A DNA stretch of 64,000 nucleotides from Bacilli bacterium (GTDB taxonomy: Bacteria; Bacillota_I; Bacilli_A; JAJDGJ01): contig JAISTP010000024.1 in NCBI GenBank assembly GCA_031272545.1, positions 1 to 64,000 on the forward strand. Direction: 5' to 3'. Below are positions 1 to 46,926 of the stretch, in pieces. A program made the translations under genes and the position numbers. The notes below the pieces were generated by a model. The model searched no databases. It saw only the letters and a program-made list of their open reading frames with translations, and was not told where the DNA came from. How positions within the stretch are numbered: the first letter of the stretch is position 1; each line of letters starts with the position of its first letter.

Positions 1-30
1 AAGATAATCATTATTGATTATCTTTTTTTT
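1..30 (+). terminator. Rho-independent terminator of an upstream gene
   Basis: A perfect 10-bp inverted repeat (AAGATAATCA / TGATTATCTT) with a 4-base loop is followed by a run of T. It probably ends a plus-strand gene lying before the window. Confidence 0.7.
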
Positions 31-57
31 ATGTTAGAATAAAATAGAGGTGTCTTT

Positions 58-978
58 ATGAAAAAATACATTAATTATTATATATTATTTGTCGAACTTA
101 GAACAAAAAGTGCTAGTGTTTTTCCTTTTTTAGGAGGATTTCTTTATTATGTCGTATATCTAGCTAATTCAAATGGTGGTATTCATTGGTTAAATCTATT
201 TGTTTTAGTTATTGTTATTCATATGATTGATGTTGCTACAACTGCACTAAATCATTATTTATCATTTGATCAAGAAAAGGAAGCTCCATCTTCTTATCAA
301 CTTCATATACTAGATTTAATGAAAGAATTAAAGATAAGTATGAAAACAAATCGTAATATTCTTATTATTATGTATTCAATTGCCTTTGTTTTTTCCATAA
401 TCTTATTCTTTATAACAAATATTGGTGTCATATTGTTAGGATTATTATGTGCTGCAGTTGGCTTTTTCTATTCATTTGGTCCTAAACCGATAGCGCATAC
501 CCCTTTTGGAGAAATCTTTTCTGGTGGTATTCAAGGTATTGTTATGCCAGTAGTAGTTATATTTTCTCAATACAATCATTTACCATGGGAATTAAATCCA
601 TTTATTGCTTTAGTCTTTTTACCTTTTGCTTTTCTAATTGGTAGCATCATGTTAGATAATAATATATGTGATTTAGATTTTGATATTACTAATAATCGTT
701 ATACTTTAGCTTATTATCTAGGTAAAAAGAATGGTGTTAAAGCATTAAATCTATCATGTATTTGTACTATTTTAAGTGTTTATTTATGTATTGTCGTTAA
801 TCTTTTACCATGGTGGTTTATCATATGTACAATAATGATTATTCCTTTATTTAAAAATGTTAAGTTATTTAGTATTGATATGATTAAAGAAAAAAGCTTT
901 ATGTTTATCTTAAAGAATTATATTCTATTCTCGCTTTGTTATATCGTTTTATTTATTGTAAATATTTTTATTAAGTAA
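58..978 (+). CDS. UbiA-family prenyltransferase (MenA/DmkA-like)
   Basis: This is a polytopic membrane protein of 306 residues, the usual length for UbiA enzymes, which attach a polyprenyl chain to an aromatic acceptor such as 1,4-dihydroxy-2-naphthoate. The second Asp-rich motif is clear (D200-N-N-I-C-D205 to D209, followed by an Arg and LGKK). The first motif is degenerate: N65 and D71 remain, but the usual N-D-x-x-D spacing is not kept. AGAGGTG precedes the ATG. Two genes downstream lie an Ndh2-type NADH dehydrogenase and a polyprenyl diphosphate synthase, so a role in demethylmenaquinone or menaquinone supply is the best inference. No other men genes are in the window, so the head-group substrate is uncertain. 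Confidence 0.85.
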   Translation: MKKYINYYILFVELRTKSASVFPFLGGFLYYVVYLANSNGGIHWLNLFVLVIVIHMIDVATTALNHYLSFDQEKEAPSSYQLHILDLMKELKISMKTNRNILIIMYSIAFVFSIILFFITNIGVILLGLLCAAVGFFYSFGPKPIAHTPFGEIFSGGIQGIVMPVVVIFSQYNHLPWELNPFIALVFLPFAFLIGSIMLDNNICDLDFDITNNRYTLAYYLGKKNGVKALNLSCICTILSVYLCIVVNLLPWWFIICTIMIIPLFKNVKLFSIDMIKEKSFMFILKNYILFSLCYIVLFIVNIFIK

Positions 979-1026
979 ATATTTAATTATATTATTGTTA
1001 TATTAATTATTTGTTAAGTAATATAC

Positions 1027-1056
1027 TTGCATTATGTTTAACTATAATATTATAAT
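1027..1056 (+). promoter_or_regulatory. Sigma-70 type promoter of the lipoprotein gene
   Basis: TTGCAT (1027-1032) and TATAAT (1051-1056) are separated by 18 bp. A second TATAAT overlaps the spacer at 1043-1048. A strong ribosome-binding site (AGAAGGAG, near 1077-1084) follows before the ATG at 1093. Confidence 0.6.
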
Positions 1057-1092
1057 ATAGATATATAAAATTCTTTAGAAGGAGACAAACAA

Positions 1093-2151
1093 ATGAAAAA
1101 ATTATTAAGTGGATTACTTATTTTAGTAATGGCTATCTTAGTAACAGGTTGTGGTGGTTCAAAAGAAAGCACCGATGCTTTCACTGAAGCTACAGCAGGA
1201 ACTAATGATTTTGAAACATTACAAAAAGGGTTTGCAGCTAATGGTGCTTGGTTAAATGCCATTACTGAAGATGTTGATGCAACAGGTAAAACTTTAACTG
1301 TTGATGGAGTATTCTCTGGAGACGGAGAAATCGCTCGTGAACTTGCTCTTTATAAATCTAATTCTGAAACTCACAAAGCTGAAGCTCGTTATACTTTAAC
1401 AGTTGATAAATTAATTGTTAATTCACCTAACTTTGCTATTGCTCAAGGTACTGTAAAAGGTACTGTAGAAGTAACAGCTCCTGGCTTCCATTTTGAAGGT
1501 GGAACTGCTGCTAAAATTGATGGTGATTTAGTATTTGCAACTGATGATTTAAAAACAGCTTATGAAGCTTTAACTGGTGATGAAAAAGGAACTGTAACTG
1601 GACAAATTAAAGTAGATACTTCTTTAAAAGCTACAGAAGTTGCTACTGGTGCAGTAACTATTAATGATACAGGTGGAGCAGTTACATTTAATGATAGTAC
1701 TGATGCCAATACTGGCGCTACAGCTGGAACTAGTGATTATGATACTTTAGAAAAAGGATTGTCTGCTGATGGAGCATGGTTAAATGCTGTTTCAGGTAAT
1801 CTTGATGCTAAAGGTAAAACTTTAACTGTTGATGGTACATTTGTTGGAGATGGAGAAATCGCTCGTGAACTTGCTCTTTATAAATCTAATTCTGAAACTC
1901 ACAAACCTGAAGCTCGTTATACTTTAACAGTTGATAAATTAATTGTTAATTCACCTAACTTTGCTATTGCTCAAGGTACTGTGGTTGGAGATGTTGAAGT
2001 TAATGCTGCAGGTTTCCATTTTGAAGGTGGATCAGCTGCTAAAGTTCAAGGTAATGTTACTTTTAAAACACAAGATTTAAAAGATGCTTATGATAAATTA
2101 CCAAGTGATGAAAAAGGTACAATTACTGGAACTGTATCAGTTGCTAAGTAA
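1093..2151 (+). CDS. Lipoprotein with two tandem homologous domains
   Basis: I do not recognise the family. Residues 1-19 form a lipoprotein signal peptide ending in the lipobox VTGC, with C20 as the predicted lipidated cysteine. The mature part consists of two repeats of about 176 residues, roughly 30-200 and 205-352. Each contains the blocks GAWLNA, GKTLTVDG, GDGEIARELALYKSNSET and LIVNSPNFAIAQGTV. The protein is probably exposed on the outer face of the membrane. It sits between the UbiA gene and the Ndh2-DoxX gene, so an electron-transfer or envelope role is conceivable. I see no FMN-binding domain motif, so it should not be called PplA. A 137-bp part of the two repeats is almost identical at DNA level. 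Confidence 0.85.
   Translation: MKKLLSGLLILVMAILVTGCGGSKESTDAFTEATAGTNDFETLQKGFAANGAWLNAITEDVDATGKTLTVDGVFSGDGEIARELALYKSNSETHKAEARYTLTVDKLIVNSPNFAIAQGTVKGTVEVTAPGFHFEGGTAAKIDGDLVFATDDLKTAYEALTGDEKGTVTGQIKVDTSLKATEVATGAVTINDTGGAVTFNDSTDANTGATAGTSDYDTLEKGLSADGAWLNAVSGNLDAKGKTLTVDGTFVGDGEIARELALYKSNSETHKPEARYTLTVDKLIVNSPNFAIAQGTVVGDVEVNAAGFHFEGGSAAKVQGNVTFKTQDLKDAYDKLPSDEKGTITGTVSVAK
1318..1982 (+). repeat. Near-identical 137-bp direct repeat inside the lipoprotein gene
   Basis: Copies at 1318-1454 and 1846-1982 are offset by 528 bp (176 codons) and differ at only two bases by my reading (a C/T at the sixth base and a G/C in the Lys-Ala/Lys-Pro codons). The flanking parts of the two protein repeats are clearly more diverged, which suggests recent gene conversion. 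Confidence 0.85.
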
Positions 2152-2180
2152 ATTGTAAAAAATTACTTAAAAAATAAGCA

Positions 2181-2215
2181 AAATAAAGCAACAACATTTG
2201 TTTGTTGCTTTATTT
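2181..2215 (+). terminator. Terminator after the lipoprotein gene
   Basis: A 14-bp perfect stem (2181-2194 with 2202-2215) has a 7-base loop and T-rich 3' arm. It separates the lipoprotein transcript from the ndh gene, which has its own TATAAT at 2220-2225. Confidence 0.7.
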
Positions 2216-2260
2216 GTATTATAATGTATCTATATATGATAGTTAAGAAAGGATGATTTG

Positions 2261-4264
2261 ATGAAAGAAATAATCGTCTTAGGTGGAGGTTATGCAGGAG
2301 TATTAACTGCTAAATATCTACATAAAAACCTAAAGAAAAATAAAGATGTTAATATTACCTTAATTGATAAGAATCCTTATCATACCATGCTTACTGAGCT
2401 TCACGAAGTAGCGGGGGGTCGTGTTGATGAAGAATCTATTAAAATGGATTTTTCCGATATTTTTGCAGGAAGAAATGTTAATGTTATTTTAGATGAAATT
2501 ATTAATATTGATTTTAATAATAAAATTATCTATAACAAAGAAAAAACTAATTTAAGATATGATTATTTAGTTATTGCGACTGGATGTAAACCAACATATT
2601 TTAATACCCCAGGTTCTGAATTTGTTTATAACTTATGGTCATACCAAGATGCTACTAATTTAAATGAACAAATTCTTCATTGTTTTAGAAGTGCCGCATG
2701 TACTAAAGATGGTAATGAAAGAAAAAAACTTCTTACTTTTACTGTTGTTGGTTCTGGATTTACCGGTGTAGAAATGGCTGGCGAATTAGGTGAATATAAA
2801 AATGAACTATGTAATAAATTTGATATTGACAAAAATGAAGTGACTATTAATTTAGTTGACGTGGTTGATCATATTCTTCCTAATTATCCAGATAAGCTTG
2901 TAAAAAAAGTAGAAAAAAGATGTGCTAAATTAGGTATTACTATTAAATGTGGTGAAGCAGTTAGCGAAGTTGGTAACGACTTTGTAACTGTAGGAAAAAC
3001 AAAAATACCTTGTATGACTACTATTTGGGCTGCAGGTATTGAAGGTAGTGAAATGGTTGATAAAATTGAAGATCTTAAAAAAGAAGGTCGTGGACGTTTA
3101 GCTACTAATAAATATCTACAAGCTATTGATCATAAAGATGTATTTGTAGCTGGAGATAATATTTATTATATTCCTGAAGGTGAAGAAAAGCCTGTTCCAC
3201 AAATGGTTGAAAATGCTGAAAAATCAGCTGAAACAGTTGCTCATAATATTTGGGCAAGTATCATTGATGGTGATTTTGAAGAATATAATCCGAAATTTAA
3301 TGGTTCAATGGTATGTGTTGGCTCTCGTTATGGTGTTGCTGCACTTGGTTCAAATCCTGATAAACCAATTAAATTAAGTGGTTTCTTAGCTATGTTTATT
3401 AAACATTTTGTTAATCTAATTTACTTTTTTAAAGTATTAGGATTTAACAAATGTTGGTCTTACTTAAAACATGAAATATTTATGGCTAAAAATAGACGTT
3501 CTTTTGTTGGAGGACACTTCTCCAATCAAGACAACGCTCCAACTTTCTTCTTAGTTCCTTTAAGAATTTGGGTTGGATTTATGTGGTTAGCAAGTGGTGT
3601 TTCAAAATTACCAGCTTGGATTAAAGATTGGACAAATGTAACATCAATGCCTAATCGAACTCAATATTGGGCTTTAGTTGGAGAAACCCCTGAAGCTGCA
3701 AGTAGTGCTAGTCAAGCTGTTACTTCTACTGATGTTACTAGTGCTGCATCTACTGCTACTACAACAACTGATGCTGTTACTGCGGCAACTACTGCTACTA
3801 CATCAACAACACCAAGTGGTTCATTATTCGATCAATTTGGAACATGGTTAAAGAACATGTTTGAAATTAAAGCAACTAATCCAATGCCACGCCCACGCTT
3901 TATTCATGACTTTATGGCATGGATTTTTGAACATGGCGTATGGGGTAAAGGTGATACTTTTACTATCTTTGCAGCTTTATTAAATTCAGGTATGATGTTT
4001 GCAGAAATTGGTGTTGGGTTATTATTAATTGTTGGTTTATTAACTCCACTTGCTGCAATCGGTGGTTTTGTAATGATGATTATCATCTACTTCTCTGGTT
4101 GGGCATATTCAAGTATATTCTTCTATGGTTTTGCTTCATTAGCTTGTATTTTTGCTGGAAATGCTTTCGGTTTAGATTATTACTTTAAACCAATTTTAGA
4201 TAAAGTACTTACAAAATTCTCACTTACAAGAAAATTATATTTATATTTTAGAAAAGAGAAATAA
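2261..4264 (+). CDS. Type II NADH dehydrogenase fused to a C-terminal DoxX-like membrane domain
   Basis: The protein oxidises NADH and passes electrons through FAD to a membrane quinone without pumping protons. Residues 1-400 carry the two Rossmann folds (IIVLGGGYAGV at the N-terminus and TVVGSGFTGVEMAGEL near 163-178) and end in the aromatic helix that anchors NDH-2 in the membrane. After this comes an unusual extension of about 250 residues: a DoxX-like membrane domain (start near 428, FFLVPLRIWVGF), interrupted at about 477-523 by a Thr/Ser/Ala-rich linker, then several more membrane helices. Ordinary NDH-2 is about 400 residues, so this is a fusion; Ndh2 of the Listeria electron-transfer locus is known to carry extra C-terminal membrane segments. 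The ATG at 2261 is preferred over the adjacent TTG at 2258 because of the GAAAGGATG ribosome-binding region. Confidence 0.88.
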   Translation: MKEIIVLGGGYAGVLTAKYLHKNLKKNKDVNITLIDKNPYHTMLTELHEVAGGRVDEESIKMDFSDIFAGRNVNVILDEIINIDFNNKIIYNKEKTNLRYDYLVIATGCKPTYFNTPGSEFVYNLWSYQDATNLNEQILHCFRSAACTKDGNERKKLLTFTVVGSGFTGVEMAGELGEYKNELCNKFDIDKNEVTINLVDVVDHILPNYPDKLVKKVEKRCAKLGITIKCGEAVSEVGNDFVTVGKTKIPCMTTIWAAGIEGSEMVDKIEDLKKEGRGRLATNKYLQAIDHKDVFVAGDNIYYIPEGEEKPVPQMVENAEKSAETVAHNIWASIIDGDFEEYNPKFNGSMVCVGSRYGVAALGSNPDKPIKLSGFLAMFIKHFVNLIYFFKVLGFNKCWSYLKHEIFMAKNRRSFVGGHFSNQDNAPTFFLVPLRIWVGFMWLASGVSKLPAWIKDWTNVTSMPNRTQYWALVGETPEAASSASQAVTSTDVTSAASTATTTTDAVTAATTATTSTTPSGSLFDQFGTWLKNMFEIKATNPMPRPRFIHDFMAWIFEHGVWGKGDTFTIFAALLNSGMMFAEIGVGLLLIVGLLTPLAAIGGFVMMIIIYFSGWAYSSIFFYGFASLACIFAGNAFGLDYYFKPILDKVLTKFSLTRKLYLYFRKEK

Positions 4265-5218
4265 ATGAGTACTATTTTTGAAGAGTATCCCATTATCAAT
4301 AATAAACTGAATGAAGTAAAAAAGACTATTGATGATAGATTAACAACTTCTGAAATTAAATTCTCAAAAGTTGTTAGATCTATCTTTAATGAAAATTCTA
4401 AATTAATTAGACCTAGTTTAGTATTAATTGCTAGTGAATATAATGAGAATGTTAGTGAGAAAGCAATTAGTTTAGCGGCAGCTGTCGAAATGATGCATGT
4501 TGCTAGCTTAGTTCATGATGATATTATTGATAATGCTAAAACAAGAAGAAACCAACCAACAATTAATGAACAATATGATATTGGCTATGCAGTAATATGT
4601 GGTGATTATCTTTTTAGTAAAGCTTTTGAAATAATATTTGAATCACAAGATTTAAAAGGTATTTCTAAAATGGGTAACAACGTAACTAATATGGTTTTTG
4701 GTGAAGTAGAACAATATTTAGATAAATATAATCAAGAAATTAATGTTGAACGTTACCTATCAATGATAGAAAAGAAAACCGCATCATTTTTTGCAACTAG
4801 TTTAACTTTAGGAGCTTATTTAGCTAAAGTTAAACAAAAAGAAATAGATTTACTTGAATTGATTGGTAAAAATATGGGAATGCTTTTTCAAATTCAAGAT
4901 GATCTATTAGATTTTAAATCAAATAATATTACAGGTAAAACTAGTAATATGTCTGATTTAAAAAGGGGAATTTATTCATTACCTATCATAATTGCTATGG
5001 AGAATGATTTAAAATTTAAAGAATATCTTAAAAGTGAGGATATTAATTATGATAATATAAAAACTTATCTAACAAATAATAAAGCTTTAGAAAAATGTGA
5101 TGATTATATTCAAAAATATTATCAAGAAACAATTAAATTAATTAACGAATTATCTAATAATAATGTTAAAGAAAAACTAAATTATTTAGTAAATAAATTA
5201 CTTAGAAGAGAAAAATAA
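4265..5218 (+). CDS. Polyprenyl diphosphate synthase (heptaprenyl/DmkB-like large subunit)
   Basis: This all-alpha trans-prenyltransferase chains isopentenyl diphosphate units to make the lipid tail for a quinone. Both Asp-rich substrate-Mg motifs are intact: DDIID at residues 85-89 followed by RR, and DDLLD at 212-216. At 317 residues it has the family length. The ATG follows the ndh stop codon with no gap, so the two genes are translationally coupled, which ties prenyl-tail synthesis to the NADH dehydrogenase. An undecaprenyl or geranylgeranyl product cannot be excluded from sequence alone. Confidence 0.88.
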   Translation: MSTIFEEYPIINNKLNEVKKTIDDRLTTSEIKFSKVVRSIFNENSKLIRPSLVLIASEYNENVSEKAISLAAAVEMMHVASLVHDDIIDNAKTRRNQPTINEQYDIGYAVICGDYLFSKAFEIIFESQDLKGISKMGNNVTNMVFGEVEQYLDKYNQEINVERYLSMIEKKTASFFATSLTLGAYLAKVKQKEIDLLELIGKNMGMLFQIQDDLLDFKSNNITGKTSNMSDLKRGIYSLPIIIAMENDLKFKEYLKSEDINYDNIKTYLTNNKALEKCDDYIQKYYQETIKLINELSNNNVKEKLNYLVNKLLRREK

Positions 5219-5250
5219 AAACAGTAGTTTCAAAATACTACTGTTTTTTA
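5217..5250. terminator. Bidirectional terminator between polyprenyl synthase and dps
   Basis: A 12-bp stem (AAAAACAGTAGT / ACTACTGTTTTT) has an 8-base loop with A and T runs on either side, so it can serve the convergent transcripts on both strands. Confidence 0.8.
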
Positions 5251-5268
5251 ATATTAAATATTAATTTA

Positions 5269-5703
5269 CTATTTAGTTCTAGCTGTTACCATCCATCTAC
5301 GTTTAGCTAATTCTTTTAATTTATTTTCCATATTACGAGCTAAACCTAATTCATTGGCTTCATTAGCAGCTTTCATGATTTCTAAATATGAAGCTTTTAA
5401 ATAATCAATGATTGCAACTAATTCTTTAACAACTTCTTCATCAGTAAATTCTTTTTCTTTAATATCTTTAATTTTTGTAATTTTAGCATATTCTTGGAAT
5501 TGTGCTAATGGTAATTTATCTACTTTTCTTAAGTATTCCGCAATGTCATCAAAATTTTCAAACATTTCTTCATACATTTCTTCTGTTAACTCATGATATT
5601 CTTCAAATCCCATTCCAACTACATTCCAATGTAAATTATGTAGTTTAACATTCAAAGCCATATAATCAGCTAATAATTGATTTAATAATTCTTCTGTTTC
5701 CAT
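5269..5703 (-). CDS. dps: Dps/ferritin-like iron-storage and DNA-protection protein
   Basis: Dps forms a hollow dodecamer that oxidises and stores Fe(II) and uses up peroxide. The protein has 144 residues, and its N-terminal helix carries the family signature LHNLHWNV, which supplies an inter-subunit ferroxidase ligand. The conserved helix with F-x-x-x-A-E-x-x-R follows at about residues 50-60. GGAG lies 9 bases before the ATG. The gene stands alone, convergent with the quinone module, and fits with the rubrerythrin at 52 kb as protection against oxygen. Confidence 0.9.
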   Translation of the reverse strand: METEELLNQLLADYMALNVKLHNLHWNVVGMGFEEYHELTEEMYEEMFENFDDIAEYLRKVDKLPLAQFQEYAKITKIKDIKEKEFTDEEVVKELVAIIDYLKASYLEIMKAANEANELGLARNMENKLKELAKRRWMVTARTK

Positions 5704-5786
5704 TTCTTATATCTCCTTTAAATTTTTACACTTAAATTATAACATATATAAATAAAATTTAAAGAAATATACACTATAAACATATT

Positions 5787-6074
5787 TTAGTCATTTTTAT
5801 TGGGATTAGCTGGAAACCACCCTTTTTTAACACGCTCTTCTTGTTCTTTGATTTCACCTATACTCCACAACCATGAACAACCTATTACACCTAAAATAAT
5901 ACTTGCATAAATATTATGTAGAAACATTGAAATAATAATACAAAAAATACCTAATATTAAAAATAATGGCCAAACTTTCTTACCAATGTAATATTCACTC
6001 TTTATAACAATGGGATGAAAAATACCAATAATAATAAAACTTACAATTGCAATAATAACACCATAGAAATTCAT
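5787..6074 (-). CDS. Small membrane protein of unknown function
   Basis: The 95-residue protein has three probable membrane helices (about residues 4-20, 33-50 and 52-70) and a charged C-terminal tail (KEQEERVKKGWFPANPNKND). An AGGTGATAAA ribosome-binding region precedes the ATG. I recognise no family and the neighbours give no clear hint. The clean start, stop and base usage suggest a real gene. Confidence 0.65.
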   Translation of the reverse strand: MNFYGVIIAIVSFIIIGIFHPIVIKSEYYIGKKVWPLFLILGIFCIIISMFLHNIYASIILGVIGCSWLWSIGEIKEQEERVKKGWFPANPNKND

Positions 6075-6164
6075 TTTATCACCTCACAAAATCATTATAA
6101 CAAATTAAAAAATAGTGTAAAGTAATATAAACTATTTATTAATAGACAATATAATATTATGAAA

Positions 6165-6206
6165 AAACTATATAAATTAACTAAAAGATGTTAACTTATA
6201 TAGTTT
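6165..6206 (-). terminator. Terminator of the DUF1846 gene
   Basis: A long interrupted stem (AAACTATATAA ... TTATATAGTTT with inner TTAAC/GTTAA) is followed on the minus strand by six T. Confidence 0.75.
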
Positions 6207-6218
6207 ATTTATTTTTAA

Positions 6219-7703
6219 TTATTTATGATAAAGTTTTTTACTTTGATAAACAGGTTCACAAGTTAAGTTAATTTTTAATTTTCTAAAAACATTATGATCA
6301 ACTTCTGAAAGAATTACCGTACTATGAGCTTCACATTGAGCTAATTTAGGTAAGGCATTAATTGCTTGATAAGTAATTGGATTAGTAGTTGCGGAAATAG
6401 CTAAAGCAATTAATACTTCATCAGTATGTAATCGAGGATTATTATTACCTAGATTTCTAATTTTAAGTTTTTGAATAGGTTCAATAATATTTGGTGTAAT
6501 TAATAACATATCTTGATCAATACCAGCAATTTCTTTTAAAGCATTTAATAAACAAGCAGATGCTGCTCCTAATAACTCACTAGTCTTACCAGTAACGATT
6601 TTACCATTTTCTAATTCAATAGCACAAGCAGGAGCTTGGGTAGCTTCAGCTTTATCAAGTGCTACTTTAACACATTTTCTATCGTCTGTAGTAACACCTG
6701 CTTGTGACATTACAATTTCTATTTTTTCAACCATGCTTTGATCAGCTAAACCTTTTTTCATATCTTCCTTAGTAAGATAATATCTTCTAATAATTTCTTT
6801 ATAACTAGCTTCTTTTGCGGCATCATCATCAATAATACCATAACCAGCCATATTTACTCCCATATCAGTTGGTGATTGATAAGGTGATTTACCAGCAATT
6901 TTTTCAAATATCGCTTTTAAAACAGGAAAAATTTCAACATCTCTATTATAGTTTACTGTAGTTTCTCCATAAGCATCTAAATGAAATGGATCAATCATAT
7001 TAATATCATGTAAATCAGCAGTAGCCGCTTCATAAGCTAAATTAACTGGATGTTTTAAAGGTAAATTCCAAATTGGAAAAGTTTCATACTTAGCATAACC
7101 AGCTTTAACCCCTCTTTTATGTTCATGATATAATTGAGATAAACAAGTAGCCATTTTACCTGAACCAGGTCCAGGAGCTGTTACAACTACAAGAGGTTTT
7201 TCAGTTTCAATATATTCATTTTTCCCAAATCCTTCATCACTAACAATATGAGCAATATTAGATGGATACCCTTCAATAATATAATGATAATAGACTTTAA
7301 TACCTAATCTATTCAATTTTTCCACAAAAGCAACAGCTGAAGGTTGACCAGTAAAGTGAGTTATACAAACACTACCAACAAATAAACCACTTTCTCTAAA
7401 AGCATCAATTAATCTTAAAGTATCATCATCATAAGTAATTCCTAAATCTCTTCTAACTTTATTTTGTTCAATATCATTGGCATTTATCGCAATTACAATT
7501 TCAACTTGATCTTTTAAAGTTAGTAACATTTGTAATTTACTATCAGGTTGAAACCCTGGTAAAACTCTTGATGCATGAAAATCATCAAATAATTTACCAC
7601 CAAACTCTAGATACAACTTATTATCAAATTGCGATATTCTTTCTAAAATATGTTTTGATTGTAACTCAAGATATTTATTATTATCAAAAGCAATTTTTCT
7701 CAT
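6219..7703 (-). CDS. DUF1846 family protein
   Basis: The protein is 494 residues long, near the usual length of about 500 for DUF1846. It begins [16 protein letters not shown], and the stretches [18 protein letters not shown] and [19 protein letters not shown] are characteristic. The second contains a glycine-rich phosphate-binding type loop. The family is widespread in Firmicutes; structures are known but the physiological substrate is not. The gene is monocistronic, with an AAAGGATTG ribosome-binding region and its own terminator. Confidence 0.9.
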
Positions 7704-7896
7704 TTATATATCAATCCTTTCTTTTTCCACTATTGAACATTATAACATAATCACTTATCTAAAAATATAATATAAGAAACATTTTTTATATAATTAATCT
7801 TTTTTATATTTAATATCTAAGTTTTTATAATATTTATGTTTATTTGTGAAAATGTTTCTTACATATATTATAATTAAAAAAGAGAGGATGGTTTTT

Positions 7897-8988
7897 ATGA
7901 ATATAAGTATTATTACACCATATACTAATACACCAGAATTAATGCGTAATTATTTACAAATTACTTTACCTATTATTAATAAGTATGGTTATGAGTTAGT
8001 ATTGGTTAGAGATGCTGAATGTAGTATCGAAATGATGAATGAAATAGAAGAAATGATTAAGGGAAATGATTTAGTTAAAAATATAACTGATAAAACTTCA
8101 CAAGGATGTTCTATTGTTAATAATAAAGGAGTAGATAATGCATCTAATGAGTTAGTATTATTTATTAATAATGATGTCTTTCTTAAAGAAGATACTGCTG
8201 AATTAATGAAAGAAAAATTATTATCAGATGATAAAATAGGAATAGTACAAGCTTTAACTTTATATCCTAATAGTGGTCTTGTTCAATCAGCAGGACATGT
8301 CTTTGGTGATTATTTTAACACTCATTGTTTAGTTAATCGTAATCCAAAAGATAAAATTGTTCAAACAGAAGCTGAACGACAAGGTATTACTAATGCATGT
8401 TATATGATGAAGAAAAGCTTATTCTATCAATTCCATGGTTATGATGAATATTTCTATAATGCTTGGGAAGGTTTAGAATTATCAATTCGTGTTCATGAAG
8501 CTGGATATAAATTAATTTATTATCCAAAAGCTGTAGCTTATCATATTCAAGGAAGTTCACGTGAATCAATCTATCGTAATGAAGATTATCAATCAGCCTA
8601 TTTTTGGACTAAACATCAAAGATTATTAGCTTGTGATTTTCATAAATTAATTAAACAACAATTAGATGATATTAGTACATTTAGTTTTGATGATGAAGTT
8701 GTATTCATTAATGGAAGTACTTATTCTTATAATGAATGGCAACCTTTAATAGATTTATTTAAAGGAAAAGTTAGCAAAACTAGTATTGTTATTTTTAAAA
8801 AAGGTGCACCAATTAAACTAGAAGAAAAAGTTAATTTAGCTGAATATAAAGAATATAAGAAAATTATTTATTTATGTGATAACTATACTAATATTAAATC
8901 TAATAAATATATGTTTGCTCAAAGAGATTCTTCTTCAGATTTAGTCATTGATATTACCGGAAATGTTATTGAAGTTAAAGACTTCTAG
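7897..8988 (+). CDS. Family 2 glycosyltransferase
   Basis: The protein starts MNISIITPYTNTPELMRNYL, the GT-A nucleotide-sugar fold beginning of GT2 enzymes. FINNDVFLKED (about residues 88-98) is the metal-binding region that replaces a classical DxD. The middle part (GYDEYFYNAWEGLELSIRVHEAGYKLIYYP) matches the acceptor-side motif of rhamnosyl/galactosyl-type transferases. Residues from about 245 to 363 form a C-terminal domain that I do not recognise. There is no membrane segment, so it is probably cytosolic or peripheral. The ATG at 7897 is chosen because AGAGAGG lies 9 bases upstream, which makes the protein 363 residues. Confidence 0.85.
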   Translation: MNISIITPYTNTPELMRNYLQITLPIINKYGYELVLVRDAECSIEMMNEIEEMIKGNDLVKNITDKTSQGCSIVNNKGVDNASNELVLFINNDVFLKEDTAELMKEKLLSDDKIGIVQALTLYPNSGLVQSAGHVFGDYFNTHCLVNRNPKDKIVQTEAERQGITNACYMMKKSLFYQFHGYDEYFYNAWEGLELSIRVHEAGYKLIYYPKAVAYHIQGSSRESIYRNEDYQSAYFWTKHQRLLACDFHKLIKQQLDDISTFSFDDEVVFINGSTYSYNEWQPLIDLFKGKVSKTSIVIFKKGAPIKLEEKVNLAEYKEYKKIIYLCDNYTNIKSNKYMFAQRDSSSDLVIDITGNVIEVKDF

Positions 8989-9005
8989 ATTATCTATCTT
9001 AATTA

Positions 9006-27064: not shown

Positions 27065-28084
27065 TTATTTTTTTATATTTTTTAATTCGCTAGTTAGTTC
27101 TGGTAAAACAGTAAATAAATCACCAACAATACCAATATGTGCTACATCAAAGATAGGTGCATACTTATCTTTATTTATCGCAATAATTAAATCTGCTTTA
27201 TCCATACCAGCAACATGTTGTACAGCTCCTGAAATACCACAAGCGATATAAACTAAAGGTCTAACTGTTTTTCCTGTTTGTCCAACTTGTTTAGCTTTTT
27301 CAATCCATCCAGCATCAACAGCTGCACGAGAACCTGATACAACAGCATCTAATTCTTTAGCACATTCTTCTAAAACTTTAAACCCTTCTGGTCCACCAAC
27401 ACCACGACCACCTGATACTAAAATATCAGCTTTTGTAATATCAATACCTTCCGCTATTCTTTGAACAATATCTAAGATTTCATAATTAACATCTGCATCA
27501 CTTAATTCAACATCAAAATTAATTACTTCACCTTTTCTATTAGTATCTGGTTGATTTTTTTCTAAAACACCCGGTCTAATAGTTGCTGTTTGAGGACGAA
27601 AATCAGGACAAATAATTGTACCAAATAAGTTACCACCAAAAGCAGGACGAGTAACCCATAATAATTTATTTCCTTCTTTTTCAGGATCAACTTGGATTAA
27701 AGTAGCATCAGCTGTTAATCCAGTTTTGATACGGGCTGCTACACGAGGACCTAAATCTCTTCCTAATGATGTTGCACCGATGAATAATCCATCAGGTTTA
27801 AATTCTTCAATAATTTGAGCCATACATTTAGTATATGGTTCTGGAACATAAGTTTTTAAATGAACATCATCAACAACAATAACTTTATCACATCCATAAG
27901 CAATGGCTTCTTGCGCTAAATCTTTTATATCACTACCTAAAAGAATACCAACAACTTTATATCCATCAGTTTCTTTTACTAATTTTGTTGCTTCACCAAT
28001 TAGTTCTAAAGCAACATCCATTATTTTTCCATCTCTTTGTTCTACAAAAACAAAGTAATCTTTTGCTTCTTCTATTTTATACAT
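27065..28084 (-). CDS. etfA: Electron transfer flavoprotein alpha subunit
   Basis: EtfA binds the main FAD of the EtfAB heterodimer. The 339-residue protein has the C-terminal FAD domain with VSGGRGVGGPEGFKVLEE, GSRAAVDAGWIEKAKQVGQT and YIACGISGAVQHVAGM. Together with etfB and the acyl-CoA dehydrogenase upstream it probably forms a Bcd-EtfAB complex; in anaerobes this reduces crotonyl-CoA with NADH, often coupled to ferredoxin reduction. The coupling is inferred from context only. Confidence 0.95.
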   Translation of the reverse strand: MYKIEEAKDYFVFVEQRDGKIMDVALELIGEATKLVKETDGYKVVGILLGSDIKDLAQEAIAYGCDKVIVVDDVHLKTYVPEPYTKCMAQIIEEFKPDGLFIGATSLGRDLGPRVAARIKTGLTADATLIQVDPEKEGNKLLWVTRPAFGGNLFGTIICPDFRPQTATIRPGVLEKNQPDTNRKGEVINFDVELSDADVNYEILDIVQRIAEGIDITKADILVSGGRGVGGPEGFKVLEECAKELDAVVSGSRAAVDAGWIEKAKQVGQTGKTVRPLVYIACGISGAVQHVAGMDKADLIIAINKDKYAPIFDVAHIGIVGDLFTVLPELTSELKNIKK

Positions 28085-28096
28085 TAATGTTGCCTC

Positions 28097-28879
28097 CTAT
28101 ACTAAATTTCTCTTATGTAACTCATCTACTATTAAATGAGCTGCTTCTTTTGGGCTACCTTCAAACAAATCAGCTTTTTTACTAGCTTCTTTAGTAAAAG
28201 TTTTTCTAACTTTTGTAGGTGAACCAGCTAATCCAATATTAGAGGGATCAACAACAATATCATCTAAATTCCATTTAATAATATCATGATCATATGCATC
28301 TACAATACCATAAGTACTCATATAACGAGGTTTATTCATTTCAGTTAAAGTTGTTAATAAACAAGGTGTTTCAACCTTAACTAAGTGATAACTATCTTCA
28401 AATTGACGATGAACAATTAAATAATCATCATGAACTTCTTCAATTTTTTCAACATAAGTTACATGAGGAATTTTTAATTTTTCAGCAGTTTGTGGTCCTA
28501 CTTGAGCAGTATCCCCATCAATAGCTTGTCTTCCTGCAATGATAATATCATAATCTACCTTTTCAAGAACACCTGCTAAAGTACTTGATGTTGCCCAAGT
28601 ATCAGCTCCAGCAAAACGACCATCACTTACTAAAATAGCTTCATCAGCACCCATAGCAATTGCTTCTTTAAGCATAATTTCTGCTTGTGGTGGACCCATT
28701 GTTATAACGGTAACTTTGGCATTATTAACATCTTTTATTTTTAAAGCTTCTTCTAATCCAGCACGATCATCTGGATTCATAATACTTTTTACACCATCTC
28801 TAATTAAAGTTCCTGTTTCAAAATTAATTTTAATTTCAGTAGTATCAGGAACTTGTTTTAATAAACAAACAATATTCAT
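28097..28879 (-). CDS. etfB: Electron transfer flavoprotein beta subunit
   Basis: The 260-residue protein begins MNIVCLLKQVPDTTEIKINF and shows GADEAILVSD, IIAGRQAIDGDTAQVGPQTA and LTTLTEMNKPRYMS. The DGDTAQVGPQ region is the nucleotide-binding motif; bifurcating ETFs bind FAD at this position. It lies 12 bases before etfA. Confidence 0.95.
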   Translation of the reverse strand: MNIVCLLKQVPDTTEIKINFETGTLIRDGVKSIMNPDDRAGLEEALKIKDVNNAKVTVITMGPPQAEIMLKEAIAMGADEAILVSDGRFAGADTWATSSTLAGVLEKVDYDIIIAGRQAIDGDTAQVGPQTAEKLKIPHVTYVEKIEEVHDDYLIVHRQFEDSYHLVKVETPCLLTTLTEMNKPRYMSTYGIVDAYDHDIIKWNLDDIVVDPSNIGLAGSPTKVRKTFTKEASKKADLFEGSPKEAAHLIVDELHKRNLV

Positions 28880-28893
28880 TTCTTTTTTCCTCC

Positions 28894-30033
28894 CTACTTC
28901 AACATAGCCGCTGAGACTACCATTCTTTGTACTTCACTTGTACCTTCATAGATTTCTGTAATCTTAGCATCTCTCATCATTCTCTCAACAGGATACTCTC
29001 TAGTATATCCATAACCACCAAATAATTGGACCGCCTTAGTTGTGACTTCCATAGCTGTTTCAGAAGCAAATAATTTAGCCATTGCGGCTTCTTTTGAATA
29101 AGGTAATCCTTGTGATTTATTCCATGCAGCACGATATACTAATAAACGAGCAGCATCAACTTTAGTTTGCATATCAGCTAATTGGAATTGCGTATTTTGA
29201 AAAGCGGCAATTGGTCTTCCAAATTGTTTTCTTTCTTTGACATAAGTAATTGTTTCATCAATCGCACCTTGAGCAATTCCTAAAGCTTGAGCTGCAATTC
29301 CGATACGACCACCATCTAATGTTTTCATCGCAATTTTAAAACCTTCTCCTTCTTTACCTAGAAGGTTTTCTTTTGGAACACGACAATCTTTCATAATTAG
29401 TTCAGTAGTTGCACTACCTCTAATTCCAAGTTTTAATTCTTTTTTCCCAATACTAAAACCTGGTGTTGTTGCTTCAACAATAAAAGCTGAAATACCTTTA
29501 GTACCTTTAGACTTATCAGTCATAGCAATAATGATATAAGTATCAGCTTTACCACCATTAGTAATAAATATTTTAGAACCATTTAAAACATATTCATTAC
29601 CATCTAAAACGGCAAAAGTTTGTTGTCCTGAAGCATCAGTACCAGCATTAGGTTCAGTTAAACCAAAAGCACCAATTTTACTTCCATCAATTAATGGTCT
29701 TAAGTATTTTTGTTTTTGTTCTTCTGTACCAAACATATAAATTGGACTTGCACATAAAGAAGTATGAGCTGAAACAATAACACCTGTTGTCGCACAATAC
29801 TTTGAAAGTGTTTCAACACAAATAGCATATTCTAAATCAGTTGCTCCTGCTCCTCCATATTCTTTAGGAAAAGGAATGCCCATAAATCCATATTTTTGTA
29901 ATTTTTCAACTGTTTCTTCTGGAAATTTTTCTTCTTCATCTACTTCAGCAGCAATTGGTTTTACTTCTTCTTGAGCAAACTTCTCAAACAATTCAATAAA
30001 TAGTTCTTGTTTTTTTGTTAAACCAAATTCCAT
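28894..30033 (-). CDS. Acyl-CoA dehydrogenase, short-chain type (butyryl-CoA dehydrogenase-like)
   Basis: This 379-residue flavoenzyme has the length and motifs of Bcd: GGAGATDLEYAICVETLSKY, the FAD/substrate block AFGLTEPNAGTDASGQQTFA, the helix QLFGGYGYTREYPVERMMRD and the catalytic Glu in ITEIYEGTSEVQRM. It interconverts a saturated acyl-CoA and the trans-2-enoyl-CoA. Its place next to etfBA points to a role in butyrate-type fermentation or branched-chain acid metabolism. No thiolase, hydroxybutyryl-CoA dehydrogenase or crotonase lies in the window, so the exact substrate is open. Confidence 0.93.
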   Translation of the reverse strand: MEFGLTKKQELFIELFEKFAQEEVKPIAAEVDEEEKFPEETVEKLQKYGFMGIPFPKEYGGAGATDLEYAICVETLSKYCATTGVIVSAHTSLCASPIYMFGTEEQKQKYLRPLIDGSKIGAFGLTEPNAGTDASGQQTFAVLDGNEYVLNGSKIFITNGGKADTYIIIAMTDKSKGTKGISAFIVEATTPGFSIGKKELKLGIRGSATTELIMKDCRVPKENLLGKEGEGFKIAMKTLDGGRIGIAAQALGIAQGAIDETITYVKERKQFGRPIAAFQNTQFQLADMQTKVDAARLLVYRAAWNKSQGLPYSKEAAMAKLFASETAMEVTTKAVQLFGGYGYTREYPVERMMRDAKITEIYEGTSEVQRMVVSAAMLK

Positions 30034-30034
30034 T

Positions 30035-30466
30035 TTATCTCTCCTTTTTTGGTGCCATTACTGTAGCACTACCTTCGATTACATTTTTGTTTTCTTGATT
30101 GTAAGCTCTCACATTAAGCTTAACAATATTTTTTTCTACTTTTAACTCCGCAACTTCAACTTCGGCAGTAATCGTATCATTGATTCTTACAGGAAGAACA
30201 AACTTAACATCAATACCTAAAAAGATTGTTCCTGGTCCTGGTAAATACATTCCTAAAACTGTTGAAATTAAAGATACACCTAATATTCCATGAGCAATAC
30301 GACCTTTAAACATTGTATTTTTAGCATATTCCTCATTAATATGTGCTGGATTTAAATCACCGCTAACTCCTGCAAATGTATAAACATCACTTTCGGTAAT
30401 TGTTTTAGTAAATGTTTCAATCTGACCGACTGAAAGCATGTCAATAGAGTAAGATTTAATACTCAT
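30035..30466 (-). CDS. MaoC-type (R)-enoyl-CoA hydratase
   Basis: The 143-residue hot-dog fold protein shows the hydratase-2 motif: FAGVSGDLNPAHINEEYAK (catalytic Asp and His) followed by GRIAHGILGVSLIS. PhaJ-like members hydrate trans-2-enoyl-CoA to the (R)-3-hydroxyacyl-CoA. It ends one base before the acyl-CoA dehydrogenase start, so it is the first gene of the bcd-etf operon. Having a MaoC enzyme in place of a crotonase in this operon is somewhat unusual. Confidence 0.88.
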   Translation of the reverse strand: MSIKSYSIDMLSVGQIETFTKTITESDVYTFAGVSGDLNPAHINEEYAKNTMFKGRIAHGILGVSLISTVLGMYLPGPGTIFLGIDVKFVLPVRINDTITAEVEVAELKVEKNIVKLNVRAYNQENKNVIEGSATVMAPKKER

Positions 30467-44037: not shown

Positions 44038-46926
44038 CTAATCTTTTCTATTTAATACAGCATAGCTAGTTAAAGAAGTAAATACTATTAAAGCAAGCAT
44101 TAAACTGTAGTAAACATCACTAGAACCAGTTTCTGGCATATTAGCAGGATCACGATAATCTGGGATACCATCGCCATCACTATCAATTGGATTCATTGGA
44201 TCAGGTCCAACTTCATCAATATCAAGAATAGTATCATTATCACTATCAATATCACGATAATCTGGTACACCATCTCCATCAGTGTCTACTGGATTTGCAG
44301 GATTGCCACTACCATCACTATTTAAAGCTTCAACACTATCTGGAATAGAATCATTATCACTATCTAAATCTTGATAATCTGGAGTTCCATCTCCATCAGT
44401 GTCGACTGGATTATTTCCATCTTCACCTTTTTCTACACTATCTGGTATTCCATCATTATCACTATCTAAATCTTGATAATCTGGAGTTCCATCTCCATCA
44501 GTGTCGACTGGATTATTCCCATCTTCACCTTTTTCTACACTATCTGGGATTCCATCATTATCACTATCTAAATCTAAATAATCTGGAGTTCCATCTCCAT
44601 CAGTGTCGACTGGATTATTCCCATCTTCACCTTTTTCTACACTATCTGGTATTCCATCATTATCACTATCTAAATCTAAATAATCTGGAGTTCCATCTCC
44701 ATCACTGTCAACAGCTTCAGTATCTAAATCTGTATCTCCTGCTTCAACACTATCTGGTATTCCATCATTATCACTATCTAAATCACGATAATCTGGAGTT
44801 CCGTCTTCATCACTATCAACAGGAGGATTGTCCATTTGACCATCGCTATTACTATCTAATACATCTGGCATACCATCGTTATTAGCATCACCTGCTGTTG
44901 TATATGGATTATCAGGATCTTCTGCAGTTACTTGTGCTTCTTCAGTATCACTAATATTATCTCCATCAGTATCTAAATCTAAATAATCTGGGATTCCATC
45001 TCCATCAGTATCAACAGGAGTAGCAGGATCGCCACTACCATCACTATTTAAGGCTTCAACTTTATCTGGAATACCATCTCCATCACTATCTAAATCTAAC
45101 CAATCAGCAGTACCATCTCCATCAGTATCTCTGATATTATCTAAATCATCACCCATTTCAACAGCATCAGGAATTCCATCATGATCATGATCTGTTTCAA
45201 TGTCAGCTGGGATTTCTTCTTTAGTAGCATCTAACGCTGCTGCTGAAATACTACTATTCATCCATGATTCAATTCTTCTAACATTACCCCATGTCGCATT
45301 AGAATTATTTGCACCATCCACAACACACCAGCCATGAACACCTTGAGCACTATCTAAAGCAGTAGATGTACATAGACTTGCCATATCAGGCCAATTATTT
45401 GGATCACTACTATCAATACCACCAGTCATCGATAAAGGATAATTAATTAATGGAACTGGTGAAGTAAATAAAGTAAGTCCATTATCAGCACTTCCTTCAT
45501 ATGCAGTCCAAGACGAATCAAATAAATCACCACTATAACCACTATCATCCCAGTATAAAGTAGTATTACCAGCATCAGAACCATTTAATTGTTCTGCCAT
45601 TATTCCACCTAAAGTTTCAACATCTTCAAAAGTGAAATAAATCGAACTAATATTTTCTATATCTATTTTAGCTGTTATAGCTTGGGTAAATGGAACAACA
45701 TTACCTTCACCATCTAAACCATTCCAATAGCTTCCTTTAGGATTAGTTGCAGTTCCATTATCAGTTCCACCAGCCGCTGTTTCATTTAATGTTACATCAA
45801 CTGCATCATCAAAATTACCATTATTATTAGTATCAATCAATATTTTATAGGTACCAATGAAAGCTGGATCTAAATAATGTAAAATATTTCCTGCTCTAGG
45901 ATTAGCACCTTCAACTGATAAACCTGTTACTTTCGCAAGAGTATTACCACCTGAGTCAATAGGATCAGGAATTATATCTTTTGGTAAATCAGTTGCTGGA
46001 GCTTCAGTAAATATTTTATACAATTTACTAATATCAGTATTTACTGTTGGATTACCAGTTTTTTGCCAAACAGACTTATCAATTGGATCACCATTACCAT
46101 CTAATAAACCTAAAGAAGAAAAGGCAATAGTAGACTCAGCACCATTATATGTATTTAAAGAAACTTTATATTGATAACCTGCATCATTAGCTGTATATAA
46201 ATCAGTAGTAAAGTTATCTCCTTGTGAAAGAGTTAATTTTCTAGTCCATACACGTCCTGGAATATCACTACCATTATTTTGAGCATCAAATTTCCAATTA
46301 TAGAAATTTTGATAAGTATTTGGATTCATAACATTACCGCTACAATTGTAGCTACCATCAGTATTTTCTGCCCATGAAAAACTTCTAATACCTGTAGTTA
46401 ATCCTGCACGATTATGAATATAAACATTATAAGTACCATCACTTGTAACAGGTGCACTGGTCCAATCAAGGGCATCACTAGGATCAGCAAGGTTTAATCC
46501 ATCATTACCTGTTGTTTGATCCACAATATTACCATTACTATCTTTTAAAATAATATCTACATAATGAGTTCCATCATCTGTTGTATTTAATGTATCACCA
46601 TTTAAACAAGCATTTTGTGCAGCTGTAGCGTCAAAACCAGGCGCACTAGCATCAGTTGCACTAACATCAAATTGATTAGGATCAACACTAGTCATTGGAT
46701 AACCTAAATAAGTATCTCCAGCTTGATCTTGAAACCATGACTCTGCATGAAATGTTTCACCTGCTTTTAAATAAACTTGAAAACTTGTTGACCAATCAGA
46801 ATTAGCAGATGCAGCTGCAGTAATTCTTAAAGGCCCATTATTAATACTCGATTCAAAAGCTAGAACGTTATGCGTCCCAAATAGAGCAAAAAATGACAAC
46901 ATGAATATTGCTATTTTCTTTCTCAT
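44038..46926 (-). CDS. Sortase-anchored surface protein with calcium-binding Asp-rich repeats
   Basis: The 962-residue protein has a signal peptide ([19 protein letters not shown], cleavage likely after VLA near 24), a long ectodomain (about 25-570), then from about 575 to 920 more than ten repeats of the thrombospondin type 3 kind (DxDGDGxPDxxDxDSDNDGI). At the C-terminus the anchor MPETG (930-934) is followed by a membrane helix and the positive tail NRKD, a sortase signal with Met in place of Leu. The ectodomain resembles secreted proteins with GEVED-like or CshA-type annotations in general composition, but I cannot assign a domain. A GGAGGTAATAAT site precedes the ATG. It is probably an adhesin. 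Confidence 0.88.
44388..44706 (-). repeat. Near-identical 102-bp tandem repeats coding for 34-residue units
   Basis: The units ([18 protein letters not shown] followed by [16 protein letters not shown] or [16 protein letters not shown]) repeat with an exact period of 102 bp: the GTCGAC site recurs at 44401, 44503 and 44605. The units differ at only a few bases, so the copy number may vary among strains. Confidence 0.9.

Follow-up and report, generated by a model that had tools for sequence, protein, structure and literature searches.

In Listeria monocytogenes, flavin-based extracellular electron transfer (EET) is carried out by the FLEET system, which comprises fmnA, fmnB, pplA, ndh2, eetA, eetB, dmkA and dmkB. 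According to the accessible parts of the reports cited here and below, EetB is a flavin adenine dinucleotide (FAD) export subunit required for the flavinylation of PplA (PMC9973259), and the named targets of FmnB, the Listeria ApbE, are PplA and FrdA (PMC9094743). The step from quinol to iron bears a question mark in one account, in which Enterococcus faecalis needs EetB and Ndh3 and not PplA (PMC9864754); PplA-independent iron reduction in Lactiplantibacillus plantarum is ascribed to an unknown oxidoreductase (PMC9888254), and a flavinylated NosR has been proposed for the quinol-to-iron step in Clostridium (PMC13134045). Here we describe four genes at the start of contig C40 (JAISTP010000024.1; 107,053 bases) of a Bacilli bacterium with a 1.32 Mb genome (60 contigs, 97.9% complete); the window analysed is the first 64 kb of that contig. 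The genes centre on a type II NADH dehydrogenase (NDH-2) fused to a DoxX-like membrane domain, Ndh2-DoxX. This small-genome bacterium appears to have rebuilt the Listeria-type NADH-to-outside system with a new kind of surface lipoprotein, here called LIPO, which carries predicted flavin sites, as, probably, does the membrane dehydrogenase.

By sequence, the genome holds an EET-type Ndh2, quinone enzymes, ApbE, EetA, EetB, a rare linked LIPO, and ApbE-like motifs in two exported segments. We consider it rather probable that these parts form a FLEET variant in which electrons would exit via flavin mononucleotide (FMN) attached to the Ndh2 loop and to a lipoprotein other than PplA. While the FLEET system itself is known, the LIPO family and the Ndh2-loop site were not found in the accessible parts of the literature, which mention neither a flavinylated Ndh2 nor such a solenoid lipoprotein; an earlier mention in Light 2018/2019 is possible.

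A Listeria-type core divided between two loci

On the forward strand, positions 58..978 encode a UbiA-family prenyltransferase of the DmkA/MenA type, that is, a 1,4-dihydroxy-2-naphthoate (DHNA) polyprenyltransferase (PF01040, 70.7 bits). LIPO, a two-domain surface lipoprotein recognised by its lipobox and domain model and proposed as the flavin carrier replacing PplA, is encoded at 1093..2151, and Ndh2-DoxX at 2261..4264 (PF07992, 128.9 bits; PF07681, the DoxX family, 34.6 bits against a cut-off of 23.6 bits). A DmkB-like polyprenyl diphosphate synthase follows (4265..5218; PF00348, 200.7 bits), coupled to ndh2 in that its start is the base directly after the ndh2 stop. A first-pass annotation of this DNA had listed the same four parts, and all of them are found at these positions, with Pfam agreeing for the three enzymes. 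The top NCBIfam matches of the UbiA protein are DHNA polyprenyltransferases, with scores under their cut-offs, and it is 31% identical to Enterococcus raffinosus menA; the sequence 5' of its gene is out of view because the window begins at the end of the contig. For ndh2, the ATG at 2261, from which residues are numbered below, was preferred over the TTG at 2258 with which the open reading frame (ORF) as called begins.

Ndh2-DoxX matches the Listeria Ndh2 (628 aa) over its full length, with 34% identity over 671 columns, membrane tail included, and the fusion is therefore the ordinary architecture of an EET-type Ndh2. The reference was an L. monocytogenes record whose annotation names fmnA, an FMN transferase, pplA, eetA, eetB and a polyprenyl synthase; its Ndh2 scores just above the Pfam DoxX cut-off (23.9 bits; cut-off 23.6). 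That the fused DoxX part is the regular tail of this enzyme type had escaped the first-pass annotation, as had the ApbE-type motifs of LIPO and of the Ndh2 loop described below; the C-terminal extension is present as annotated, although it measures about 270 residues rather than about 250, with four predicted membrane helices and a loop of about 120 residues.

In a tree of 36 Ndh2 proteins, the window's sequence, itself on a long end branch, stands beside family f11 of the same class with moderate support (89/96); a long branch also sets off the Listeria-type group. Matches to Ndh2-DoxX at E<1e-90 were obtained in 17 of 395 genomes of the class, which includes Haloplasmataceae, and a contig search gave 23 loci, including those of Maledivibacter, Oceanirhabdus, Anaerovorax odorimutans, Haloplasma and Inordinaticella. 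Within the order, represented by four genomes, the gene was found in this genome alone, the same-genus genome G001 being without it; weak matches in G002 and G003, confined to the N-terminal half at 25-27% identity, were attributed to other flavoproteins. The neighbours at 33 loci, counted after removal of duplicate records and labelled by reading the sequences, with several checked against Pfam and NCBIfam, comprised a polyprenyl synthase at 32, ApbE at 26, an FMN_bind/PplA-like lipoprotein at 21, UbiA at 14, EetB at 10 and EetA at 6. The neighbourhood is that of the Gram-positive EET locus. In one genome (G055, locus L055; contigs C203, C184 and C15) Ndh2-DoxX is encoded twice and LIPO by five paralogues, two of which lie in the EET locus.

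The FMN-attachment genes lie elsewhere. An apbE gene (PF02424, 210.9 bits), whose product is a lipoprotein, eetA (PF07009, 76.4 bits) and eetB (PF07456, 114.7 bits) form one run on one strand of contig C28. A genome-wide search for apbE/fmnB and eetAB thus recovers all of them, and their reported absence is true of the window and not of the genome. Identity to the Listeria counterparts is 31% for the synthase, 29% for ApbE (FmnB), 28% for EetA (82 aligned residues) and 34% for EetB. No PplA with two FMN_bind domains was found in the genome, whose FMN_bind matches are RnfG and a 140-aa membrane-anchored protein.

The system would work like FLEET and shares the FLEET core by descent: an NDH-2 with a C-terminal membrane domain homologous to Listeria Ndh2 along its length, a candidate ApbE-like site in the Ndh2 loop, and homologues of DmkA, DmkB, ApbE/FmnB, EetA and EetB. 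Unlike the Listeria system, it is encoded at two separate loci, its lipoprotein is a modelled beta-solenoid and not a PplA with two FMN_bind domains, and neither MenB nor MqnA was matched in the genome at E<=0.1. We do not call it a strict FLEET member because PplA was not found and because apbE (C28) and ndh2 (C40) lie in different clusters. EET has been defined by a flavinylation gene cluster that holds an NDH with a membrane helix (PMC8238504), and a split locus would evade this definition, as far as the accessible parts of that source describe it.

Since DmkA and DmkB are present and no MenB or MqnA was detected, a naphthoquinone precursor such as DHNA is probably scavenged, and the genome probably encodes its prenylation. 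The search for other men genes and terminal oxidases thus gave no MenB at this threshold, and did give a cytochrome bd, considered below. A comparable case is L. plantarum, which scavenges DHNA and whose FLEET system, fed by exogenous DHNA, is likewise Ndh2-dependent and without DHNA synthesis of its own, a trait deduced for the present genome from the missing menB and mqnA; unlike this genome, L. plantarum has PplA (PMC8837199, PMC9888254).

Candidate flavin sites on the Ndh2 loop

The DoxX-like membrane region (3551..4210, forward strand), delimited by Pfam and a structural model, has helices at residues 431-448, 569-591, 595-612, 618-631 and 638-650. The loop that joins the first membrane helix to the second (3605..3964, forward strand) is predicted from the model and from charge to be extracytoplasmic. 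We place it outside because of the helices, the cytoplasmic NDH-2 domain and the difference in charge, with 8 Lys/Arg in the 120 residues of the loop against 8 in the 36 residues of the C-terminal tail.

ApbE recognises the motif D-x-x-[S/T]-G-A-[S/T] and attaches FMN to its last residue; in one test protein, changing G to A approximately halved flavinylation, changing D to A mattered little, and removing the last S/T abolished it (PMC12052999). The window's loop contains three motifs resembling it on the forward strand: the degenerate, E-type EAASSAS (3692..3712), followed by DVTSAAS (3731..3751) and DAVTAAT (3770..3790), both with A for G. The corresponding loop holds SGAS in Listeria, TGAS plus EATTAAT in E. 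raffinosus, and DAVSAAT plus DAVTAAT in Acetoanaerobium.

The relaxed pattern D..[ST].A[ST] occurs in 27 copies in the loops of 15 of 33 Ndh2 relatives. Only 0.51 copies are expected, and none of 5000 shuffles reached 27; residues were permuted within each loop, which keeps the composition, and the relatedness of the genomes was ignored. The 33 sequences omit the incomplete L077 and the duplicate records L061-L065 and L075. The pattern is absent from the non-loop parts of all 33 proteins, ranks first among 420 permuted patterns in the loops (median 1) and was found in 8 of 336 unrelated neighbour proteins. Among the window's 78 ORFs (19,648 aa) only LIPO and Ndh2 contain it, twice each, and among 110 further ORFs of the genome it appears in two, the 140-aa FMN_bind protein and, by reading, a cytosolic amino-acid dehydrogenase. 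The eight Haloplasma-type Ndh2 proteins all lack the loop motif, and in seven of the eight loci a directly downstream lipoprotein carries it instead. This lipoprotein (L045-L052, cluster c8) has one to four ApbE-like motifs in its C-terminal part, 12 copies in 7 of 7 proteins, and the one member scanned gave no Pfam or NCBIfam match. An ApbE-type site conserved in the Ndh2 loop would offer a concrete candidate for the quinol-to-outside step.

DoxX-type domains are linked with quinone handling. In Ndh2-DoxX, residues R435, E582, D639 and Y640 of the DoxX-like domain are conserved in the alignment of relatives, and the protein also matches PF04173 (DoxD). Together with this general link, the relation to DoxD, a subunit of thiosulfate:quinone oxidoreductase, suggests that the domain handles quinone and may form a quinol oxidation site; a search by sequence for a solved DoxX relative returned none.

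A solenoid lipoprotein family

LIPO carries the lipobox VTGC, with Cys20 as the lipidation site predicted by pattern, and consists of two domains with 73% protein and 79% DNA identity to each other. The domains (1168-1623 and 1696-2148) share an identical run of 24 codons, suggesting a recent duplication or gene conversion, and the L059 and L079 members of the family are likewise two-domain proteins. The first ApbE-like motif, DAFTEAT (1174..1194, forward strand), lies eight residues after the lipidated Cys; the second, DANTGAT (1702..1722, forward strand), fits D-x-x-[S/T]-G-A-[S/T] exactly. The earlier statement that LIPO lacks an FMN-binding domain stands, as no Pfam match was obtained at E<=0.001; an NCBIfam match to GspN (23.4 bits, cut-off 50) was rejected as chance.

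Alignments define a family domain of 140-150 residues, each copy of which is preceded by a short conserved island. Across 17 domains from 14 intact proteins, position 1 of the island is D in 16 and E in one, position 4 is S/T in 16, position 6 is A in 12 and P in 5, and position 7 is S/T in all, the form [DE]xx[STA]x[AP][ST] fitting every domain. All 14 proteins have a lipobox by pattern. Among them D..[ST].A[ST] occurs in 10 copies, compared with 0.58 in shuffles, of which 0 of 2000 reached 10.

Described ApbE substrates are FMN_bind, DUF2271 and DUF3570 proteins, with rarer ones remaining (PMC8238504), to which Flavodoxin_4 and FMN_red have been added (PMC11334425). Like these, LIPO is exported, has a motif of the D-x-x-[ST]-G-A-[ST] kind and, in relatives, is encoded near apbE. 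Unlike them, it has its motif in a linker before a solenoid and matches none of the five domains, which were not detected in six family members at E<=5.

The AlphaFold model of the domain (predicted local distance difference test, pLDDT, 90; six sequences in the input) is a beta-solenoid by its structural matches. VIA-align ranked solenoid adhesins highest (Z 8.8-9.3) and gave a bactofilin at Z 6.4, Foldseek gave no PDB match at E<=0.001, and the L059 protein has a sub-threshold bactofilin match (25.7 bits, cut-off 27.9). The model thus points to a bactofilin-like beta-solenoid in place of PplA, and we claim no structural family for it because VIA-align gave solenoid look-alikes only.

In the class, 9 of 395 genomes were matched by LIPO, or 8 once G070 was dropped, its weak match being a peptide deformylase by reading. 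A sample of 392 genomes of the phylum gave six, all of this class. The 22 genomes behind named loci gave four matches, of which two are real (L059, L079); those in G543 (5e-5) and G548 (8e-4) are weak and were placed in the model like the G070 match. Seven of the eight LIPO-bearing class genomes also have Ndh2-DoxX (hypergeometric 5e-10, with the relatedness of genomes ignored), and in the exception, G073, LIPO has EetA on one side and ApbE on the other. Of 11 genomes, 6 have LIPO within two genes of apbE, eetA or ndh2 (the present one, G055, G073, G082 and the genomes behind L059 and L079). In G046 the gene is split into two pieces (L109:7062-7340 and an adjoining fragment), with its relatives intact; this protein was left out of the motif counts and retained in the genome counts. 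In G082 (L108:2577-10853), EetA, LIPO and ApbE are flanked by three FMN_bind/fumarate-reductase-like genes, whose products are candidate flavinylated reductases.

Electron route and competing explanations

The first-pass annotation had offered two readings, a related system with a different extracellular carrier or a minimal NADH-oxidising chain. The former is well supported by the Ndh2, DmkA and DmkB homologues, by apbE-eetA-eetB in the genome and by the lack of PplA. In the route we propose, DmkA and DmkB would make the prenylated quinone from a naphthoquinone precursor that is probably scavenged DHNA, the NDH-2 domain would oxidise NADH in the cytoplasm and reduce the quinone, and the fused DoxX-like domain would bring electrons from quinol to the outer face. 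EetB would export FAD, ApbE would attach FMN to Ser/Thr in the Ndh2-DoxX loop and at the head of each LIPO solenoid, and the flavins of loop and LIPO would pass electrons on to an acceptor outside the cell, Fe(III) or another. The FMN-attachment half, apbE-eetA-eetB, would thus be provided by another locus, and the usual carrier PplA would be replaced. We infer the FMN on loop and LIPO, the role of DoxX, the direction of electron flow and the final acceptor.

A wider proposal, which we advance tentatively, is that Ndh2-DoxX in EET bacteria is a flavinylated transmembrane reductase, with the flavin on its own loop or, in Haloplasma, on the downstream lipoprotein, and that solenoid lipoproteins are a new class of ApbE substrates replacing PplA. 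NADH electrons would then pass from NDH-2 through the DoxX quinol site to FMN on the enzyme's own outer loop. If true, a flavinylated Ndh2 loop would supply the missing quinol-to-outside step of Gram-positive EET, and could explain the need for FAD export by EetB where PplA is dispensable.

Several observations weigh against these readings, beginning with the fact that both flavinylation and ferric reduction are sequence-based predictions. The Ndh2 loops are Ala/Ser/Thr-rich and of low complexity; 18 of the 33 relatives have no D-type loop motif, three (L041, L043, L044) having the E-type alone; the Listeria loop has SGAS without an upstream D; and the strict consensus is present in just 4 of 33 loops and not in the window's, whose motifs bear A at the G position. 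The loop motifs could arise from linkers that are Ala/Ser/Thr-rich or built of 11-residue helical repeats and stay unmodified, with FMN on LIPO only or on FMN_bind proteins only, and we give this explanation appreciable weight, if somewhat less than an even chance. DAVSSATGAAA-like units are repeated in several loops, and the core of the window's loop is disordered in the model (pLDDT under 50 at residues 479-520 and 535-538). However, composition-preserving shuffles and permuted patterns do not reproduce the enrichment, and L055, L059, L068, L073 and L079 have single, non-repeated copies. Moreover, loops of the Listeria type share a PFxWL stretch and retain [ST]GA[ST] behind it, and in the Haloplasma group the motif is transferred to a separate lipoprotein. 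For LIPO, the unfavourable points are that DAFTEAT is degenerate, with E for G, and that the gene lies apart from EET genes in 5 of 11 genomes. The protein may serve the cell envelope as a structural or adhesive beta-solenoid and play no part in redox chemistry, as the weak bactofilin similarity of the L059 protein and the solenoid adhesins among the structural matches (Z 9.3 and 8.8) would allow. We regard this as unlikely, given that the motif is kept before every solenoid, that two genomes have the gene flanked by eetA and apbE and three others have it next to apbE, and that LIPO and Ndh2-DoxX co-occur in the class.

ApbE also has other likely targets, RnfG and the 140-aa FMN_bind protein, and LIPO as its sole possible target was accordingly rejected. 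The 140-aa protein (C42) could itself be the working outer carrier, with LIPO as an accessory: it has an FMN_bind domain (35.3 bits) and the motif DVISNAS, and its gene adjoins a flavodoxin-like gene. Yet it is short, offers one site and shows no linkage to EET genes in the stretch read, and we think it a rather improbable carrier. Cytochrome bd provides another electron outlet, with CydA at C40:73331-74443, 9 kb past the window, and a CydB-like gene adjacent. Read by eye, the remaining PF07992 matches resemble TrxB, a ferredoxin-NADP reductase type, alanine dehydrogenase, MnmG, TrmFO and one further flavoprotein; since by length and sequence none reads as an NDH-2, Ndh2-DoxX seems to be the only NDH-2 of the genome. 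Both facts would suit a short aerobic chain from NADH through quinone to cytochrome bd, in which LIPO is incidental. Such a chain leaves apbE-eetA-eetB and an EET-type Ndh2 without purpose, and among the relatives Ndh2 proteins of the DoxX type are linked with apbE and FMN_bind genes; as a full account it has, in our estimate, a small chance. Of the combination that the first-pass annotation had set against EET, a complete bd chain and no ferric reductase activity, the genome provides, on genes alone, the bd half. The two uses are compatible, because Listeria has bd and Qox oxidases alongside EET (PMC9094743), and the minimal NADH-oxidising chain may thus be an additional use of Ndh2-DoxX next to the favoured FLEET variant.

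Regarding the other flavoproteins, the rnf run (L086:7927-11597, C19) holds the end of C, then D, G, E, A and a 92-residue RnfB frame, and ends at the contig edge; in its RnfG the motif reads DTISGST, S replacing A. In the four-gene locus, a terminator-like inverted repeat of 14 pairs (2181..2215, strand unassigned) lies between the LIPO gene and ndh2, and a second at 5217-5248; two such repeats against 1.4 expected in shuffles is weak and near chance. The promoter scan was uninformative (32 found, 33.6 expected), and an Rfam scan of positions 1-9000 gave no match. Farther along the window (27065-30466) and at L085:13489-15411, reading by eye showed genes for EtfA/EtfB, acyl-CoA dehydrogenase and MaoC-like proteins, as well as a long acyl-CoA dehydrogenase to which EtfA-like and rubredoxin-like parts are fused. 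A large protein encoded at 44038-46926 of the window is secreted, contains Asp-rich repeats and has a PETG-like anchor at its C terminus.

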